This document shows positions 21,707 through 31,038 of a stretch of DNA of 39,938 nt, piece after piece. Source of the DNA: Chloroflexota bacterium (GTDB lineage: Bacteria > Chloroflexota > Dormibacteria > Dormibacterales > Dormibacteraceae); contig VBHA01000040.1 in the NCBI GenBank assembly GCA_005889495.1, positions 1-39,938 of the forward strand. The letters are read 5' to 3'. Position numbers and translations under genes: made by a program. The first letter of the stretch is position 1. The number at the start of each line of letters is the position of its first letter. The notes under the pieces were generated by a model. It was not told the DNA's origin and made no database searches. It worked only from the letters and a program-made list of their open reading frames with translations.

Positions 21707-22456
21707 GTGAGAGACCCACGGCGCGAAATCTTGAGCCAGGTGGCCGCCGGGACGATCTCGGCCGAGGAAGGAGCCGCCCGCCTGGAAGCCCTCGAATCGG
21801 CCCCCCCAGCGCCGGCCCTGCCCGCGGAGGCGCCCACGCCCTCGCCGGCCAACGCGGTCACGCGGGTCAGGGTCACCTCGCGCTTTGGGAACGCAGAGAT
21901 AATCGGCGACCCAACGATCGCCACGGCAGTTGCCGACGGGCCCCACAAGGCCCGCCAGGAAGGGGACACGATGGTCATCGACCAGTCCCTGCTAGGCGAT
22001 GACAGCACCTTCGAGTTCAACCGGCCTTACGCCCGCGTGAGCATCCCTGGGTTCGACTTCCACCGCAAACTCGTCGTCCGCATGAACCCGGCCCTGGCGC
22101 TCCACAGCTCGGTGCAGGCAGGAAACGTCCGCATCCAGGGGGTCAAGGGCCCGATCACCAGCGACGTGCAGGCCGGCAACTCGCTGGTCGACGGCTTCGC
22201 CGGCCCGCTGAACCTCTCCGTGGCCGCCGGAAACCTCGAAGCGAGAGGCCGGCTCGATGGAGGTGTGAGCTCGATCAAATGCCAGATGGGCGAGGTCAAG
22301 GTGCAGCTGGACAGGACCTCGAACGTTCGCATCACGGCCCGCACGACCATGGGCGACGTCAGGGTCGAGGGGGTCGAGGACCAGGTCGTCGGCAGTGGCT
22401 CCGGCAGCCTGGAGATCAACTGCACGATGGGCGACGTGAAGGTGAGCGTCGCGTGA
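21707..22456 (+). CDS. DUF4097/YvlB-like protein with N-terminal helical motif
   Basis: 249 residues, soluble by sequence with no transmembrane segment. The N-terminus (REILSQVAAGTISAEEGAARLEAL) is the short helical motif found in YvlB/LiaX-type envelope-stress proteins. A Pro/Ala linker follows. The remainder is a repetitive right-handed beta structure typical of DUF4097 (VQAGNVRIQGVKG, VQAGNSLVDGFAG, VAAGNLEARGRLDG, TTMGDVRVEGVED, CTMGDVKVSVA), with G-[ND]-[VL] turns about every 16-20 residues. The GTG start sits at the predicted transcription start. Its stop overlaps the DUF2089 start (TGATG). The family is linked to cell-envelope stress in Firmicutes; here that is inference. Confidence 0.8.
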   Translation: MRDPRREILSQVAAGTISAEEGAARLEALESAPPAPALPAEAPTPSPANAVTRVRVTSRFGNAEIIGDPTIATAVADGPHKARQEGDTMVIDQSLLGDDSTFEFNRPYARVSIPGFDFHRKLVVRMNPALALHSSVQAGNVRIQGVKGPITSDVQAGNSLVDGFAGPLNLSVAAGNLEARGRLDGGVSSIKCQMGEVKVQLDRTSNVRITARTTMGDVRVEGVEDQVVGSGSGSLEINCTMGDVKVSVA

Positions 22457-22836
22457 TGGCGCGCACCATGACGCGGCGCCCGCCATCGAACTGCCCGGTG
22501 TGCAATCACCGCCTCGCGACCACTCGCCTCTCGTGCCCCGAATGCAGCACCGAGCTGTCGGGCGCTTTCACGCAGTGCGAGTTCTGCGTCCTCACCGACG
22601 AGGACCGCGACGTGCTTCGTGTGTTCCTCGCCTCGCGCGGAAACATGAAAGACCTGGAGCGACACCTCGGGGTCAGCTACCCCACCGCCCGCGCTCGCTT
22701 CGACGCGTTGCTCGGCAAGCTCGGCATCGAACGCCCAGCCTCCCCCGCCCCGTCGCGGATCGAGCTGATGGAGCAGGTGGCCCGTGGAGAGATCGACATC
22801 GACGAGGCGCTCAAGCGCCTCAACTCAAATGGCTGA
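22456..22836 (+). CDS. DUF2089 zinc-ribbon/HTH protein (putative regulator)
   Basis: 126 residues. An N-terminal zinc ribbon (NCPVCNHRL, then LSCPECSTEL) is followed by FTQCEFCVL. Next comes a helix-turn-helix (FLASRGNMKDLERHLGVSYP, then TARARFDALL), characteristic of DUF2089. The C-terminus (RIELMEQVARGEIDIDEALKRL) repeats the helical motif at the start of the DUF4097 protein, suggesting the two interact or share a partner. It probably binds DNA and may regulate its own operon. ATG 22456 overlaps the previous stop. Confidence 0.85.
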   Translation: MARTMTRRPPSNCPVCNHRLATTRLSCPECSTELSGAFTQCEFCVLTDEDRDVLRVFLASRGNMKDLERHLGVSYPTARARFDALLGKLGIERPASPAPSRIELMEQVARGEIDIDEALKRLNSNG

Positions 22837-24306: not shown

Positions 24307-26028
24307 CTACCTGACGCCCGCGGCGGCCAGCCCGGCCGCGTGCGCGGCCGAGGCATCCATGCCCGCGTCCAGCGCCAGGACCGCCGCTCCGGCGAAGGCG
24401 TGCGAGCGGTGCTGGTCCATGTTGAGGTCGATGTTCGCCAGCGCAAACCAGGCGCAGTACGTCTGCCGGGCGTAGGCAACGTTCTCCGGAGGACGGCTCA
24501 TGGCCGCGGTGGCCCACTGCACGGCCGTGGTCACATCCTTGCCTGACGAAAGCGCCTTGAACGCGCCCTGGGCTGCGGCGTGGCAGGCGCTCGCCGGCGC
24601 GCCGCCCCTTTTCGCCCAGGCGAACCATTCCGCGTATGAGCGGTCCTCGGCGGTCGGACCAGAGGGACCTCTGGCGGCCCTCGCCTGCTCCACCACCTGC
24701 CAGGCCTGCTTGCCGGGTTGCGCCGGAGCGCCGGCCGGCGTCGCTGGAGCCGCCGGGACCGGGGCCACCGGCAGGTGGCCGCCCGAGACCGGAGCGGGAG
24801 GCACCGGCGGCGGTTCCGGCCTGGCCGTCTGCGCCGCCGGCTGCGCGGTCGCGTGCGGGATCTGCTCTTTCGGCGAGAACCAGGTGGGCGTGCCCGGCTC
24901 GGACGCCAGCGGCACACGAGGCGCCCACGCCGGGACCTGCAGCGAGGGCGCCTGCTCCTTGTGCGCGGTGGATGGACTCTCGGTGCCCACCGCGGCGGGA
25001 GCGCCCGGTGCCCACGCGGGACGGGACGGCGGTCCGGACTGGGCCGGGTTCACCGGCTGCGGAGGCTGCGGTTCCGGCTTGCTCGCGGCCGGGGCCGCGG
25101 GCGCTGGCGGCGGCGGTGGCGGGACGGGCTGGGTCACCCGCGCGGCGGGCATCGGCGGAGGAGGCTGCTCCTGCCTCGGCTCGGGCGCGGGCGTGATGGT
25201 CGGGGGGATTGGCGGCTGGGACGGGGTCGACGGCGTTGACGGTGTCGAGGCCGCAGGCGCCGGCTCCGCGGAAGCGGCCGCCGCGACGTCGAACGAATCG
25301 GGCCAGCTCGGGATCGCCTGCGCGGGCGTCGCCGGCTCCTCCTCCGGAGATGGACCCTGCCCGCGCCCGGCGAGCTGCGAGGACGGCGGCCATGCCGGCA
25401 TTGCGTGCTCGGTCGGCGGCTCGGGCGGCCAGATGTCGGTCTCCTGGGGTGGCGCTGGGGCGCTTTCAGACCGCGGCGGCCAGGTCGATTTCAGCGCGTC
25501 GGCGGCGACCGCCCTGGGCGGGGCGGTCAGCGGGGCCTCGGTCACCTCGCTCGCGGGAATCGGCTGAGCCGGCTCGGCCGGCTCGGCGGGCTCGGCCGGC
25601 TCAACAGGCTCGGCGGGCTCGGCACGCTCGGCGGCCTCTACCGGCTCGGCGGGCTGGGGCGGCGCCGAAGCGACCGCTTCCGACCACCTTGCTCCCTTCG
25701 CCTCAGGCTCGGCCACCTCTCCCTCGAGCGCCCCGCCCGGCGAGGTCGGCACTGTCTGCGCCCATTCCGGGGTCTTCTTCGCGTTTCCGTTGGTCGAGCC
25801 CTCGGAAGCCGTCCAGTCGGGGTCGCCTTTCTCCATTGAGATCGGCGGCGGCATGGCCTCGTCCGCCGTGTCGTGAGCCTCCGAGTCCACGGCGTCATCG
25901 GCCGGGGCGACAGGCTTCGTGTGTGCCCAGACGGGCGTCGTCTCCCCCGTCGGGACGGCGTCCACCGGCTCTTCGGGCGCGACCGGAGGCGGCGTCGAAT
26001 CGTGTGGAGTGGAGGGCTCGGTCTCCAA
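24307..26028 (-). CDS. Pro/Ala-rich protein with an unrecognised, internally duplicated C-terminal domain
   Basis: 573 residues from TTG 26028; a stop lies just upstream, so TTG is the only early start. About 460 residues are disordered linker: Glu-Pro-Ala repeats (EPAEPAEPAEP), Pro runs, and Trp motifs spaced through it (TPVWAHTKP, TPEWAQTVP, PAWAPGAP, PAWAPRVP). The C-terminal ~115 residues are ordered and helical and look like two copies of one unit. SYAEWFAWAKRGG leads to HAAAQGAFKALSSGKDV, and TYCAWFALANIDLN leads to HAFAGAAVLALDAGMD. I recognise no family. No signal peptide or membrane helix is seen. The Trp-Pro linker resembles that of the FHA protein at 9468-11117. Confidence 0.75.
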   Translation of the reverse strand: METEPSTPHDSTPPPVAPEEPVDAVPTGETTPVWAHTKPVAPADDAVDSEAHDTADEAMPPPISMEKGDPDWTASEGSTNGNAKKTPEWAQTVPTSPGGALEGEVAEPEAKGARWSEAVASAPPQPAEPVEAAERAEPAEPVEPAEPAEPAEPAQPIPASEVTEAPLTAPPRAVAADALKSTWPPRSESAPAPPQETDIWPPEPPTEHAMPAWPPSSQLAGRGQGPSPEEEPATPAQAIPSWPDSFDVAAAASAEPAPAASTPSTPSTPSQPPIPPTITPAPEPRQEQPPPPMPAARVTQPVPPPPPPAPAAPAASKPEPQPPQPVNPAQSGPPSRPAWAPGAPAAVGTESPSTAHKEQAPSLQVPAWAPRVPLASEPGTPTWFSPKEQIPHATAQPAAQTARPEPPPVPPAPVSGGHLPVAPVPAAPATPAGAPAQPGKQAWQVVEQARAARGPSGPTAEDRSYAEWFAWAKRGGAPASACHAAAQGAFKALSSGKDVTTAVQWATAAMSRPPENVAYARQTYCAWFALANIDLNMDQHRSHAFAGAAVLALDAGMDASAAHAAGLAAAGVR

Positions 26029-26072
26029 ATCGCCGTCAGTCTAGCGATGAGTTGTTGATCTTGTTACCAAGT

Positions 26073-27059
26073 TCAGGCGAAGAGGTTTTTCAGGGCGTCC
26101 TCCGGCACCGGGTCGGGTTGCTGCTCGGCCCAGTCCGCGGCCTCCGAGGCTTCCTTGTCGCAGGCCGCCTGGACCTCCGCGGCGCCCTCGGCCGTGATCC
26201 ACCGCCGCTGGAGGAGCCAGCTCACGAAACTGGCGATCGGATCGTGCCGCGCGGCCTCCTCCATCTCCTCCTGGGTTCGGTACTTGAGCTGGTTGTCCTC
26301 CGAGGTATGAGAGTTGATGCGCCAGATCTTGGCGTCGATCAGCGTAGGTCCCTCGCCTCGCCGTGCCCGAGCCACCGCCTCCCGGCAGACGTCGTAGCAG
26401 GCGGGCACGTCCGTCCCGTCCACGGTCACGCCGGCGATGCCGTACCCCGCCGCGCGGTCGGCGACGTCCGGGTTGGCCATCTGCAGACGGATGGGCACTG
26501 AGATCGCGTAGCTGTTGTTCTCACACACGAAAACCACGGGCAAGCGGTGCACGGCCGCGAAGTTGACGCCTTCGTGGAACTCGCCCTGGCTCGTCGCGCC
26601 ATCGCCGAAAGTGCAGAGCGTGACGGTGCCCTCTCCCCTCAGCTTCGCCGCATAGGCGATGCCGGCCGCCTTCGGGATCCAGCTGGCGACCACCTGCGAG
26701 ACAGGCGCGATTTTCAGCTTGCGGTAGCTGTAGCAGCCGCCCGGGATGTTCCGTCCGGCGGACAGGGGATCGCCAGCCTTGGCGAAGACCGCCAGCATCC
26801 ATTCCTTCATCGTCAGGCCGCGCACGATCGCATTCGCGAGCCCGCGGTAGTGCGGCACAAGCCAGTCGTCCTTGGTCAGCGCCGCGGTCGAGGCGACCTG
26901 GATCCCCTCATGGCCACGGCTCGAGCCGACGAAGGGCGCGCGCCCCTGCTTGACCAGGATGTGCATTCGGTCGTCCAGCGCCTTGGCCATGCACATCCAT
27001 CTGTGTAGGTCCAGGTACTCCTCGCGCGTGGCGCTGCGCGCCTTGGTCGTGGTCGCCAT
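26073..27059 (-). CDS. 2-oxoacid dehydrogenase E1 component, alpha subunit (orphan)
   Basis: 328-residue thiamine-diphosphate enzyme subunit of the pyruvate or branched-chain 2-oxoacid dehydrogenase complex. The TPP motif is clear: LCTFGDGATSQGEFHEG to VFVCENNSYAIS (GDG...NN). The phosphorylation-loop region (INSHTSEDNQLKYRTQEEM) and GSSRGHEGIQVAS are also seen. The N-terminus is normal from ATG 27059. No beta subunit or E2 is adjacent, although alpha and beta usually sit together. It is the last gene of the leu-like operon, its start overlapping the synthase stop (ATGA). It would decarboxylate a 2-oxoacid to acyl-dihydrolipoamide if a beta subunit is supplied from elsewhere. Confidence 0.88.
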   Translation of the reverse strand: MATTTKARSATREEYLDLHRWMCMAKALDDRMHILVKQGRAPFVGSSRGHEGIQVASTAALTKDDWLVPHYRGLANAIVRGLTMKEWMLAVFAKAGDPLSAGRNIPGGCYSYRKLKIAPVSQVVASWIPKAAGIAYAAKLRGEGTVTLCTFGDGATSQGEFHEGVNFAAVHRLPVVFVCENNSYAISVPIRLQMANPDVADRAAGYGIAGVTVDGTDVPACYDVCREAVARARRGEGPTLIDAKIWRINSHTSEDNQLKYRTQEEMEEAARHDPIASFVSWLLQRRWITAEGAAEVQAACDKEASEAADWAEQQPDPVPEDALKNLFA

Positions 27060-28447
27060 CACGCGCTCGCTTTGGGAAGAAACGCGGTTGCGATGTCCAC
27101 GACTTCTTCGGCGGTCAGTCCCATGCGGTTCAGGTGATCGTAGTACCGGCGGTGGAAGTCCGAGAAATCGTTGCGCTCGGCGCGCTCCTCGCGGATGCGC
27201 TTGACCTCGGTCAGGACTCTGGCCACCAGCTCCGGCTCGGGCTTGATCCCCGCGTGGCGCAGCGCGTGCTCGATCACGAGCGTGCCCGAATGCTTGCCGT
27301 ACACGTAGGAGATCTCGGCGCCGAGGTCGGCCGGCGGGATGAACTGATAGATCGCCGGATGGATGAGCATGCCCGCGGTGTGGATGCCGGATTCGTGGCT
27401 GAACACGTTGAGGCCGATGCCGGGCTCGGTCGGCTGCACGGGCACGCCGCTCATCTTCTCGAGGCTGCGCGCCAGGTTTCTCAGCCGGTCGTACTTGAAG
27501 TTCGGGATTTCGATGCCAAACAGGTAGCGCAGCTGCAGCAGCACCTGGTGCATCGGCGCGTTGCCGGTCCGCTCGCCGATCCCGTTGACGCTGGTCGTGA
27601 AAACCTCGGCGCCTGAGCCGAGGGCCATCACGGTGTTCCACGCGCCGAGGCCGAGGTCGTTGTGGAAATGCACGACAAGTGGTGCGTCGGGAGCGGCCGC
27701 TTTGATCGCCGGGATGTACTCGCGCACCGCGAACGGCGAGTAGCAGCCGACGGTGTCAGGGGTCGAGGGACGCGTGCCGCCCGCCTTCAGCCCTTCCCGG
27801 TGGATCTGGGCGATGTAGTCGACGTCCGCGCGGCTTCCGTCCTCGCCGCCGAACTCGATCGAGGTCGCTCCTTGAGCGCGCGCGTAGGCGATCGCCTCGC
27901 ACATCATCCGCAGGTTGGCCTCGCGGTAGTACGACACCGGGAGCTCGAGCCACTCCGACTCGGGAATGCCGTCGCGGTGGAGGAGCGTCTTGCCGAGCTT
28001 GTACTTCACGTGCAGGTCGGAGGCCGACGTGAAGATGAAGTAGGTCACGTCGTCGCGCTTGTGGCCGAGCTTGTCGATCACCTGCATGGTGGCGTCGATG
28101 TCGCCCTTCGTCGACCGCATCATGCACACGACCTCGAGGTCTTGCTTCAGCTCGCCGCGCTTGCGGCCTTCGAGTACCAGGCGAAGCGTCTCCCGCTCGC
28201 CTTCGCTTACATATGGAAAGCCGACGTCCATCACGTGGACGCCGATGTCGGACAGCATGCGCGCGAGCTCGTACTTGTTCTGTGGGGTGATGGCGACGCC
28301 CGGCATCTGCTCCCCGTCGCGCAGGGTGTCGTCGTAGATGCGGATCTTGTCGGGTGGAGGGAACTTGAGGTCGTGGGCGAATCGAGTCGGGTCGCGGGCG
28401 AGCTCTTCGAGCGGCTCCTGAAGCTCTACCGGCTCGATGTCATCCAC
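27059..28447 (-). CDS. Isopropylmalate/homocitrate synthase-like enzyme (DRE-TIM metallolyase)
   Basis: 462 residues that condense acetyl-CoA with a 2-oxoacid. The DRE-TIM signature DDTLRDGEQMPGVAITP is near residue 40, followed by EFGGEDGSRAD, VVHFHNDLGLGAWN (metal HxH), VNGIGERTGNAP and HESGIHTAGML. The usual LeuA C-terminal allosteric domain is absent: after KHSGTLVIEHAL only about 60 helical residues remain, as in homocitrate synthases or NifV. Leucine feedback of the normal kind is therefore not expected. The 2-oxoacid used (2-oxoisovalerate, 2-oxoglutarate or another) cannot be read from the sequence. It overlaps leuD by 8 bp and the E1 alpha gene by 3 bp. Confidence 0.85.
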   Translation of the reverse strand: MDDIEPVELQEPLEELARDPTRFAHDLKFPPPDKIRIYDDTLRDGEQMPGVAITPQNKYELARMLSDIGVHVMDVGFPYVSEGERETLRLVLEGRKRGELKQDLEVVCMMRSTKGDIDATMQVIDKLGHKRDDVTYFIFTSASDLHVKYKLGKTLLHRDGIPESEWLELPVSYYREANLRMMCEAIAYARAQGATSIEFGGEDGSRADVDYIAQIHREGLKAGGTRPSTPDTVGCYSPFAVREYIPAIKAAAPDAPLVVHFHNDLGLGAWNTVMALGSGAEVFTTSVNGIGERTGNAPMHQVLLQLRYLFGIEIPNFKYDRLRNLARSLEKMSGVPVQPTEPGIGLNVFSHESGIHTAGMLIHPAIYQFIPPADLGAEISYVYGKHSGTLVIEHALRHAGIKPEPELVARVLTEVKRIREERAERNDFSDFHRRYYDHLNRMGLTAEEVVDIATAFLPKASA

Positions 28448-28985
28448 TGGTCGCCGACGACTTGCGGCGTCGCTCTTCGAGTCGTTTGCGGACCCAGGGC
28501 ACGAGCCCGCCCATCTTCAGCAGGTCGGTCATGAACTGTGGAAAGGCTTCCGCCCTGTATTCGTCACCCTTCGTGAAATTGCGGATGATTCCCTGCTCGA
28601 GATCGATTTCGAGCTCGTCGCCCTCCTCCACGGCCTCCGCGGCCTGCGGCGACTGCATGATCGGGTAGCCCATGTTGATCGCGTTGCGGAAGAAGATCCT
28701 CGCAAACGAGTCCGCGATCACAAGCGAGATGCCCGCTCCCCGGATGGCGACCGGCGCGATCTCGCGCGACGAGCCGCATCCGAAGTTGGAGCCACCTACC
28801 AGGATGTCGCCCTCCGTGACCCCCTGCGCCCACGTGTCGCGGCCGGGCACCCCTTCCATCGCGTGCTTGCCAAGCTCCTTCTCGTCGAGGGAGTAGATCG
28901 CGTACTTGGCCGGGATGATCTGGTCGGTGTCGATGTTGTCGGCGAACTTCCAGGCTCTGCCGCGCACGACCTTCGGAAGAGTCAT
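28440..28985 (-). CDS. leuD: 3-isopropylmalate/homoaconitate dehydratase small subunit
   Basis: 181-residue swivel-domain subunit that completes the active site of the LeuC-type large subunit. Diagnostic features are GRAWKFADNIDTDQIIPAKY at the N-terminus, NFGCGSSREIAPVAIR, and SFARIFFRNAINMGYPI. The C-terminal 15 residues are Arg-rich (RKRLEERRRKSS), longer than many homologues. Its ATG 28985 overlaps the stop of the exported protein gene, which separates it from leuC. Substrate (isopropylmalate or a homologue) depends on the synthase. Confidence 0.9.
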   Translation of the reverse strand: MTLPKVVRGRAWKFADNIDTDQIIPAKYAIYSLDEKELGKHAMEGVPGRDTWAQGVTEGDILVGGSNFGCGSSREIAPVAIRGAGISLVIADSFARIFFRNAINMGYPIMQSPQAAEAVEEGDELEIDLEQGIIRNFTKGDEYRAEAFPQFMTDLLKMGGLVPWVRKRLEERRRKSSATSG

Positions 28986-29752
28986 GGCCTGGCCGGAAAG
29001 TCCGCCGCGGCGGCCTGGGGCCGCGGGCGAACGAGCGTCACGATCACCGCGATGACCAGCGCCGCTGCGATGAGGAGCGCCCCCACGGCAAAGGTGATCA
29101 TCACCGGGACCATGTACCTCGAAAGCATCGACTGCTGCGCGGCCTGAGGCCCCAGCGCGGTGCCGTTCGGCGCGATGGTGTACATCTCGCGCGCCTGGGC
29201 CAGGGCGGCTGTCGTCCGGTAATCCACGTCCGACCCCCTGTAAAGAGTGAAGGCGTCGTTGGCCTTGGTGAAGCCGGCGGCCGTCCAGTGGAAACCATTC
29301 ACGATCTCCTCCCCGGCCCAGGACGTGTCGTCCAGATTGATAGGCACGGGGCCTTTGTAGCTGTCGGCGGCGATGAATCCACTCTTGACCGAGCTCAGCA
29401 TCGACTCGGCGTCACCTGGGGCACGGAAGACGAAGACGGTCTCGAAAAGCACCTCCCGGTTGCTGGACCAGATGCGCTGGTACCCGGTCACGAAGCCGCG
29501 AGAGGTCAGCATGTCCCGAAACGCCTGCCGGGAGCGGGCGTCCGTTCCTGCCCACTGGGCAAAGGCACCCGCGTCGAAGTAGCCGACGAGGTCACCCGAC
29601 CGGTTCGAGGTGGTCTCGACGAAGTCAGGCTCGACCGGGTTGGCGAGAGCCTGGGGCAGGTCGGTCGTCCCGGGCGACGCCGCCATGGCCCCGGACATGG
29701 GAAAGATGGCCAGGCCGGCGATGGCGGCCAGGGCGAGCCGCCGCAGCCTCAT
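28982..29752 (-). CDS. Exported, membrane-anchored protein of unknown function between leuC and leuD
   Basis: 256 residues. The N-terminal signal peptide (MRLRRLALAAIAGLAIFP, with cleavage likely after GAMA) leads into an extracytoplasmic domain of about 180 residues (SNRSGDLVGYFDAGAFAQWA, DMLTSRGFVTGYQRIWSS, FETVFVFRAPGDAESM). One C-terminal membrane helix (MITFAVGALLIAAALVIAV) is followed by a short basic tail. I recognise no domain; the middle recalls lipoprotein-like substrate-binding folds, but this is a guess. Both ends are ATGA overlaps, with leuC upstream and leuD downstream, so it is locked into the operon. Its presence between the two subunits of one cytoplasmic enzyme is odd. Confidence 0.8.
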   Translation of the reverse strand: MRLRRLALAAIAGLAIFPMSGAMAASPGTTDLPQALANPVEPDFVETTSNRSGDLVGYFDAGAFAQWAGTDARSRQAFRDMLTSRGFVTGYQRIWSSNREVLFETVFVFRAPGDAESMLSSVKSGFIAADSYKGPVPINLDDTSWAGEEIVNGFHWTAAGFTKANDAFTLYRGSDVDYRTTAALAQAREMYTIAPNGTALGPQAAQQSMLSRYMVPVMITFAVGALLIAAALVIAVIVTLVRPRPQAAAADFPARP

Positions 29753-31038
29753 GCCAGACCCGCGGGCATCCTGGCGAGGACCTCGCTCGGGTGCGTGATC
29801 ACACCCGCGACCGCGCTGGCGGCGGCGACGGCGGGGTTCGACAGGTAAACCAGCGCCTTCGGGTGCCCCATGCGCCCGGGGAAGTTGCGGTTCGTGGTGC
29901 TCAGGCACACCTCGCCCTCGCCGAGCACACCCATGTGGCCGCCGAGGCAGGCGCCGCACGTCGCCGTCGTCCACGCCGCCCCGGCGGCGAGAAAGGTGCG
30001 GATCAGGCCTTCCCTCTCCGCCTGGATCGCGACCTGGTGCGAGGACGGGGTGATGATCAGCCGCACACCAGGCGCCACCTTGTGGTTCTCCAGCACCGCG
30101 GCCGCACGTCGCAGGTCGGTGATGCGCGAGTTGGTGCACGAGCCGATGAAGACCTGGTCGAGCTTCGTCCCCGCCACCTCCGACAGCGGCGCGTAGTTGT
30201 CGGGCGACATGGGCTTGGCGACGCCGAGCTCGACCTTCTCCGCGTCGAACTCGAAAACCTTCTCGTACTCCGCGTCGGCGTCCGAAGAGACCGGCGTGTA
30301 GGGGCGCTTCGCGCGACCGTCGAGGTACTCCCGGGTGATGTCGTCGAACTCCATGATTCCGTTCTTGGCGCCGGCCTCGATCGCCATGTTGGTCATGGTC
30401 AGGCGCGCCTCCATGTCGATGTGGCGCAGCGCCTCGCCGGTGTGCTCCATCGCCTTGGACCGGGCGCCGTCGACTCCGATCTGGCCGATGACGTAGAGGA
30501 TCAAATCCTTCGCCTCGACCCATTCCTTGAGCCTGTTGCGGTAGACGAACTTCAAGGTCTCGGGGACGCGAAACCAGAGCTCGCCCAGGGCGAGCACGCA
30601 CGCCAGGTCGGTCGAGCCGATGCCGGTGGCGAAGTTGTTGAGCGCCCCGTAGGTGCAGGAGTGCGAGTCGGCGCCGACGACGAGCTCGCCCGGGAGCACG
30701 AGCCCGTGCTCGGGCAGCACCGTGTGGCAGATGCCGCCCTGCCCCACCTCGAAGTACCACTTGATGCCCATGTCGTGCGAGAACTCGCGCGTGAGCCGGC
30801 CGAGGGTTGCGCTCGCGGCGTCCTTGGCCGGCTGGAAGTGGTCCTGCGTCACCGCCACCCGGTCGGGATCCCAGATCTTCTCCGCGCCCATCTGCTCGCG
30901 CATGATCTTTCCGGCCGGCGGGATGGTCAGGTCGTGGCCCATGGCAAAGTCGACCTTCGCCAGCACCAGGTCGCCGGGCCGCACGCTCTCGCGGCCGGCG
31001 CCCCGCGCCAGGATCTTCTCGGTCATCGTCATGCCCAT
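29749..31038 (-). CDS. leuC: 3-isopropylmalate/homoaconitate dehydratase large subunit
   Basis: 429-residue aconitase-family [4Fe-4S] enzyme of the archaeal/short LeuC type. The start ATG 31038 gives MGMTMTEKILARGAGRESV. Motifs: VTQDHFQPAKDAAS, VVGADSHSCTYGALNNFATG, FIGSCTNSRITDLRRAA (first cluster Cys), and TCGACLGGHMGVLGEGEVCL with the Cys-x-x-Cys cluster pair. Ends with VYLSNPAVAAASAVAGVITHP. It isomerises isopropylmalate or, with a homocitrate-like synthase, homocitrate/homoisocitrate. It lies 11 bp after the broken dehydrogenase gene, and its stop overlaps the exported-protein gene. No internal gap is seen. Confidence 0.92.
   Translation of the reverse strand: MGMTMTEKILARGAGRESVRPGDLVLAKVDFAMGHDLTIPPAGKIMREQMGAEKIWDPDRVAVTQDHFQPAKDAASATLGRLTREFSHDMGIKWYFEVGQGGICHTVLPEHGLVLPGELVVGADSHSCTYGALNNFATGIGSTDLACVLALGELWFRVPETLKFVYRNRLKEWVEAKDLILYVIGQIGVDGARSKAMEHTGEALRHIDMEARLTMTNMAIEAGAKNGIMEFDDITREYLDGRAKRPYTPVSSDADAEYEKVFEFDAEKVELGVAKPMSPDNYAPLSEVAGTKLDQVFIGSCTNSRITDLRRAAAVLENHKVAPGVRLIITPSSHQVAIQAEREGLIRTFLAAGAAWTTATCGACLGGHMGVLGEGEVCLSTTNRNFPGRMGHPKALVYLSNPAVAAASAVAGVITHPSEVLARMPAGLA

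Follow-up and report, generated by a model that had tools for sequence, protein, structure and literature searches.

A duplicated three-helix domain and a conserved Trp/Pro motif array in a protein of the Dormibacteria

On the minus strand of a 39,938-nt contig of the Dormibacteraceae (VBHA01000040.1; here the window, i.e., the whole stretch of DNA that was analysed), positions 24307..26028 encode a 573-aa protein in which a disordered Pro/Ala/Glu-rich tail with Trp motifs is followed by a C-terminal twin helical domain. The domain is undescribed and absent from every public library tested, it is set apart from solved structures and viral fold models, and its family appears, as far as searched, to be restricted to the class Dormibacteria. 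The protein is tentatively taken for a cytosolic multivalent adaptor acting near the membrane, a reading to which we would give a chance somewhat short of even.

The gene and its twin helical domain

The open reading frame starts with a TTG codon, and its product has no transmembrane (TM) segment and no evident signal peptide. In its orthologs the start (TTG, once GTG) and the frame are kept, and when the window was compared with five of them, dN/dS was about 0.3 in the tail (0.26–0.35) and 0.05 in the C-terminal domain (0.05–0.06). Because of the conserved start and these ratios, the 573-aa minus-strand ORF is, on comparative grounds, a real gene. The idea of a spurious or decaying ORF within high-GC sequence, which the overlap of several ORFs in other frames and a 9-nt tandem repeat in the low-complexity tail might have encouraged, is hardly tenable: start and frame are conserved in the orthologs read, internal stops are absent, and the substitution pattern, with its third-position divergence and a dN/dS far below 1, already refutes it. 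A TAGACT box lies on the minus strand at 26038..26043, 9 nt upstream of the start codon, and TAGACTG is found 9–11 nt upstream of the start in 14 of the 14 orthologs read. The box could serve as the −10 element for a (near-)leaderless transcript, and given its conservation the gene may be transcribed from a promoter of its own, although 44 nt separate it from the gene for E1-alpha, which precedes it on the same strand.

The C-terminal domain (residues 457–573; 24310..24660, minus strand) comprises six helices (2 × 3) in the AlphaFold2 model. The initial annotation had proposed that two homologous units form a two-repeat helical domain here, and the halves, on whose structural likeness the proposal hung, proved alike both in profile and in predicted structure. 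A unit profile, which includes the sequence itself, matched unit 1 (RSYAEWFAWAKRGGAPASACHAAAQGAFKALSSGKDVTTAVQWATAAM) at 24499..24642 with an E-value of 4e-16 and unit 2 (RQTYCAWFALANIDLNMDQHRSHAFAGAAVLALDAGMDASAAHAAGLAAAG) at 24319..24468 with an E-value of 1.3e-15, both on the minus strand and both in the places where the units had been annotated. Self-alignment of the two halves of the single sequence with BLOSUM62 gave a score of 48 versus 25.6 ± 5.1 in shuffles, a value that was reached by 10 of 5000, and hhalign of unit 1 versus unit 2, using 17 diverse proteins, gave a probability of 98.8% and a score of 78.6, the maximum score in 100 column-shuffled controls being 14.2.

Each repeat unit is about 50 residues long and consists of a YxxWxxWA helix, an HAxAxxAxxAL helix and an AxxxAxxAA helix. 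With a 32-row alignment of the window and related loci as input, AlphaFold2 modelled residues 457–573 at pLDDT 96.7 and pTM 0.90, and the three-helix unit is present twice in the model with a period of about 60 residues (helices 4–18, 23–38 and 43–53, then 63–78, 83–98 and 103–113 in the numbering of the domain model). The twin unit is predicted to fold independently, and the conserved Tyr, Trp and Phe residues that are abundant in the globular domain (YAEWFAWAK, YCAWF) may be its buried core. In a tree of the units, most first units cluster separately from most second units, which suggests that one duplication preceded the spread of the domain, 50 residues being few for a firm tree and too few for reliance on it.

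The domain had been thought to belong to no known family, and this was borne out by the absence of a confident match in Pfam, NCBIfam, PHROGs, PDB sequences, PDB folds and viral folds. Pfam held no credible match to the protein, the domain, eight carriers of the domain or 32 single units, NCBIfam held none to the protein, PHROGs and PADLOC held none, and PDB sequences gave none with either a single sequence or a profile. Foldseek against 350,542 PDB chains returned nothing at E ≤ 0.001 (best E 0.43, TM about 0.26), and nothing credible was found in a library of viral predicted folds (best E 0.30), where the matches with a high “prob” value extend over no more than roughly one unit or two paired helices at E > 0.3 and were put down to simple helix packing. 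The sub-threshold Pfam matches, i.e., XPB_DRD (E 0.007–0.022 in one member), CDPS, HrpJ and others, were dismissed as chance, each being confined to one sequence, and a UBA-like likeness of the helix 2–helix 3 segment was considered and dropped, as it had neither a Pfam nor a fold match. Viral contigs (queried with the single protein and with alignments) and plasmids (tblastn) contained no relatives.

The disordered tail and its Trp/Pro motifs

The tail (residues 1–456; 24661..26028, minus strand) had been described as a disordered tether, of which the disorder stood and the tether did not. In the full-length AlphaFold2 model only the six domain helices fold, and in the tail of about 455 residues the pLDDT stays mostly under 55 and no helix reaches 4 residues. 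Its composition in the window, counted over 464 residues, is 25% Pro and 19% Ala with 12 Trp, which stand at residues 34, 72, 89, 115, 183, 200, 213, 242, 339, 368, 383 and 443. Among the motifs around them are PVWAHT, DPDW, PEWAQT, STWPP, DIWPPEPPTEHAMPAWPP, IPSWPDSF, RPAWAP, VPAWAPRVPLA, TPTWFSPKE and WQVVEQ.

Across 14 orthologs the Trp is invariant at 10 of the 12 positions, versus 107 of the 458 tail columns overall; mean identity is 0.93 for Trp versus 0.52 for the tail, and of the other invariant columns 56% are no more than 5 residues away from a Trp, versus 27% of all columns. In more distant genera the number of motifs is mostly kept though the tail aligns poorly: most of the full-length proteins there have 10–13 Trp, three shorter or partial ones have 3–5, and the motif kinds PxWAxT, DxWPPEPPTE, (M/I)PxWP, VPxWAP and WxVVEQ recur. 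Between the conserved blocks, a nine-base tandem repeat (25561–25663) encodes AEP/EPA repeats, and this region, in which the orthologs differ strongly in length, therefore looks like a fast-changing spacer. Judged by its pattern of conservation, the tail is an array of Trp/Pro motifs on which selection acts, and not a plain spacer. Such a disordered array is most naturally understood as a series of binding sites; the conserved Trp could also serve other ends. Outside the orthologs the motif block turned up in no more than four matches, all of them weak (E-values of 0.001 or worse), and stops interrupt three of them.

The main rival to the adaptor model is self-association, in which the aromatic helical domain would bind the Trp/Pro motifs of other copies and a homotypic network or condensate would result, much as with polar scaffold proteins. 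An aromatic-rich globular domain and about a dozen such motifs do share one chain, and several other carriers also have Pro-rich linkers beside the domain. However, the motif block is absent from those carriers, the full-length model contains no confident tail–domain contact and docks none of the motifs confidently on the domain, and the conserved aromatic residues may be occupied in the core, so self-assembly is considered unlikely.

Distribution, carriers and chromosomal site

The domain was searched for in the window's genome and in 60 related ones, and 34 of these 61 gave a match. All 34 belong to the family of the window; in this set no match came from the three other families sampled from the class, and the sole genome of the same genus without the domain is the least complete one (63%). 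When 400 genomes of the phylum were searched, the two-unit profile gave 24 matches, all in the same class, and the single-unit profile gave 26. The only single-unit match outside the class (G197) was discounted for its internal stop and E-value of 2e-4. Within the class, units are present in 46 of 110 genomes and across two families. The single-unit search covered the genomes of the phylum, and the wider scan, of 84,980 GTDB species genomes, depended on a single pattern drawn from the alignment, [YF]A[ED]W[FY][VAT]WA; it brought up 32 relatives, nearly all of them named Chloroflexi or Dormiibacterota MAGs. Two of the 32 are labelled Bacillota and “unidentified” and were taken to be the genomes G036 and G027 of the window's own family.

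Sought in other proteins, the domain turned out to be mobile, with one or two units found on RDD, zinc-ribbon-like, other TM and TPR proteins. Divergent two-unit copies precede RDD TM domains in L028, L032 and L038 (Pfam, E 1e-23 to 1e-25), a region assigned to the RDD type by resemblance in L031, and other multi-TM regions in seven further proteins (L026, L029, L030, L033, L034, L035 and L036); another is carried by a TPR protein (L037), and one by a Pro-rich protein with an additional C-terminal part (L027). In the window's own genome, a CxxC/zinc-ribbon-like two-TM protein is preceded by a single unit (L119 = G000:C28:10786-10929). The same arrangement is found in L110/L112, L111/L113 and L123, and a single unit also accompanies a protein of this kind in the second family of the class (L117/L118); two representatives of these proteins had no Pfam match. 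Further single units lie inside other TM proteins (L114, L115, L120, L122 and L160).

By hydropathy, TM segments are predicted in 11 of the 13 two-unit carriers that do not belong to the Pro/Trp group, in all 13 single-unit entries listed, and in no member of the Pro/Trp group itself. The unit therefore appears to be mainly an appendage of membrane proteins, presumably on their cytosolic side, with the 573-aa protein as the soluble exception. The genomes of the window's genus contain no other two-unit protein, and some of them contain a single-unit membrane protein, so the supposed membrane partners would differ across genera.

Upstream of the gene, the minus strand of the window carries one block (26073–30760) with E1-alpha (PF00676), an isopropylmalate/homocitrate-type synthase, LeuD/homoaconitase-type genes and a LeuC-like match. 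On the other side of the gene, a Toastrack/LiaG-like gene (NCBIfam LiaG, E 5e-7, below the cut-off) is followed by a DUF2089 zinc-ribbon/HTH gene on the plus strand (21707–22836). Most ortholog loci keep a leuC-like gene, leuD, the synthase, E1-alpha and the 573-aa gene, and beyond it the convergent DUF2089 and Toastrack/LiaG-like genes, often with an MFS gene between. The site is empty in L125 (G029) and L127 (G027), where E1-alpha is followed by DUF2089 within about 50–80 nt, and in L133, from another family, DUF2089 also comes after E1-alpha with no gene between. In L126, L128 and L132, from sister genera, a different membrane protein occupies the site after E1-alpha. As the site is empty in some sister genera, the gene does not belong obligately to either neighbouring set, and obligate operon membership with E1-alpha is rejected. 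By this comparison of loci, the gene was gained (or lost) at one constant position and has been passed on by descent. In L126 and L128 the N-terminus of the membrane protein at the site carries a further Trp-rich module, with the stretch SPDGQFMWDGATWRP..RWEPTDW, for which Pfam had no match.

The conserved order and the short distance to E1-alpha on the same strand raise the idea that the protein is a subunit of the 2-oxoacid dehydrogenase of that E1-alpha, in which, as in E2, a Pro/Ala-rich linker would carry a small helical subunit-binding domain. The linker and the adjoining E1-alpha gene are indeed points of likeness to the E2 subunits of these enzymes. Unlike them, the protein is without a lipoyl, subunit-binding or catalytic domain (the lipoyl, E3-binding and 2-oxoacid dehydrogenase acyltransferase models of Pfam and NCBIfam gave no match up to E = 10), and the site is empty in relatives that keep E1-alpha, i.e., E1-alpha and leu-type genes occur without the 573-aa gene in sister genera and another family (L125–L133). 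As the TAGACT box suggests a promoter of its own and the other carriers of the domain are unrelated to E1, a dehydrogenase subunit is very improbable. A partnership with the genes on the other side is somewhat less so, though still quite unlikely: the domain would help to assemble sub-membrane signalling complexes in an envelope stress response. DUF2089–Toastrack neighbourhoods have been described as candidate PSP-like membrane stress systems (PMC11237479), the pair adjoins the 573-aa gene in most ortholog loci, and the unit is mostly found on membrane proteins. Against this, the pair is convergent to the gene and not co-transcribed with it, it is also found where the gene is missing (L125, L127, L133), and in L052, L061, L062 and L071 the gene is present and the pair was not found nearby.

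Proposed role and comparison with known systems

The unit is probably an intracellular protein-docking module, because its relatives were found in only one class and mostly as side-domains of membrane proteins; when a small, all-helical, strongly conserved module is re-used on many membrane proteins, docking is the most natural function to assign to it. The analysis shows that the gene is real, that the unit is duplicated, that a fold and a disordered tail are predicted, that the Trp motifs are under selection and that the other carriers are biased towards membrane proteins; docking by the domain, partner binding by the motifs and a membrane-proximal location are what we infer. In the adaptor model, the three-helix unit of about 50 residues, duplicated once, would be a lineage-specific helical adaptor module, and the twin-helix domain would dock on membrane proteins that carry the unit or on a partner common to them. 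Each Trp/Pro motif of the soluble disordered tail would hold a further partner, and about a dozen short linear motifs of the Pro-x-Trp type would gather several molecules beside the membrane. A wider proposal, which we regard as possible and rather doubtful, is a class-specific intracellular scaffolding system of the Dormibacteria, with the three-helix unit as the docking plug shared by many membrane proteins, joined in some members of one family by a soluble Trp/Pro hub that is encoded at a single chromosomal site and gathers partners around it. If true, this system would have no counterpart described elsewhere. The conserved Trp/Pro array would be a clear and testable case of a bacterial disordered scaffold. 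In this soil lineage, which is mostly known from metagenomes, the domain is spread over many membrane and soluble proteins, and with a profile of it a whole group of nameless proteins could be annotated together.

PopZ-type polar scaffolds combine a long Pro-rich disordered part with a compact helical oligomerising end. The 573-aa protein resembles them in the overall layout of a disordered Pro-rich part and a compact helical part; no sequence relation was found, however, and its disordered part bears an array of conserved Trp motifs. In proteins with DUF2510 or GYF_2-type N-terminal domains, an accessory domain is joined by a Pro-rich linker to an RDD or other membrane part. Among the carriers described here the same order recurs, with an RDD-type membrane part after the linker, whereas the present domain is an all-helical twin unit without a Pfam match that is also found on a soluble Trp-motif protein.

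SHOCT domains have about 30 residues and two helices (PMC3581485), and a part in membrane anchoring has been suggested for SHOCT and SHOCT-like domains, small modules that occur on many proteins (PMC3581485, PMC11237479). The present unit differs from them in its size of about 50 residues, its three helices, its usual duplication and its occurrence in one class, while SHOCT is widespread in bacteria, and the SHOCT model of Pfam (PF09851) matched neither the protein, the domain, the eight carriers nor the 32 single units. Membership is excluded because of size, fold and the lack of a model match. The likeness, which is one of behaviour only, lies in a short, all-helical, mobile module that stands at the ends of proteins, is fused to many unrelated partner domains and is often linked to the membrane, and by this analogy SHOCT-type domains would be its nearest precedent.
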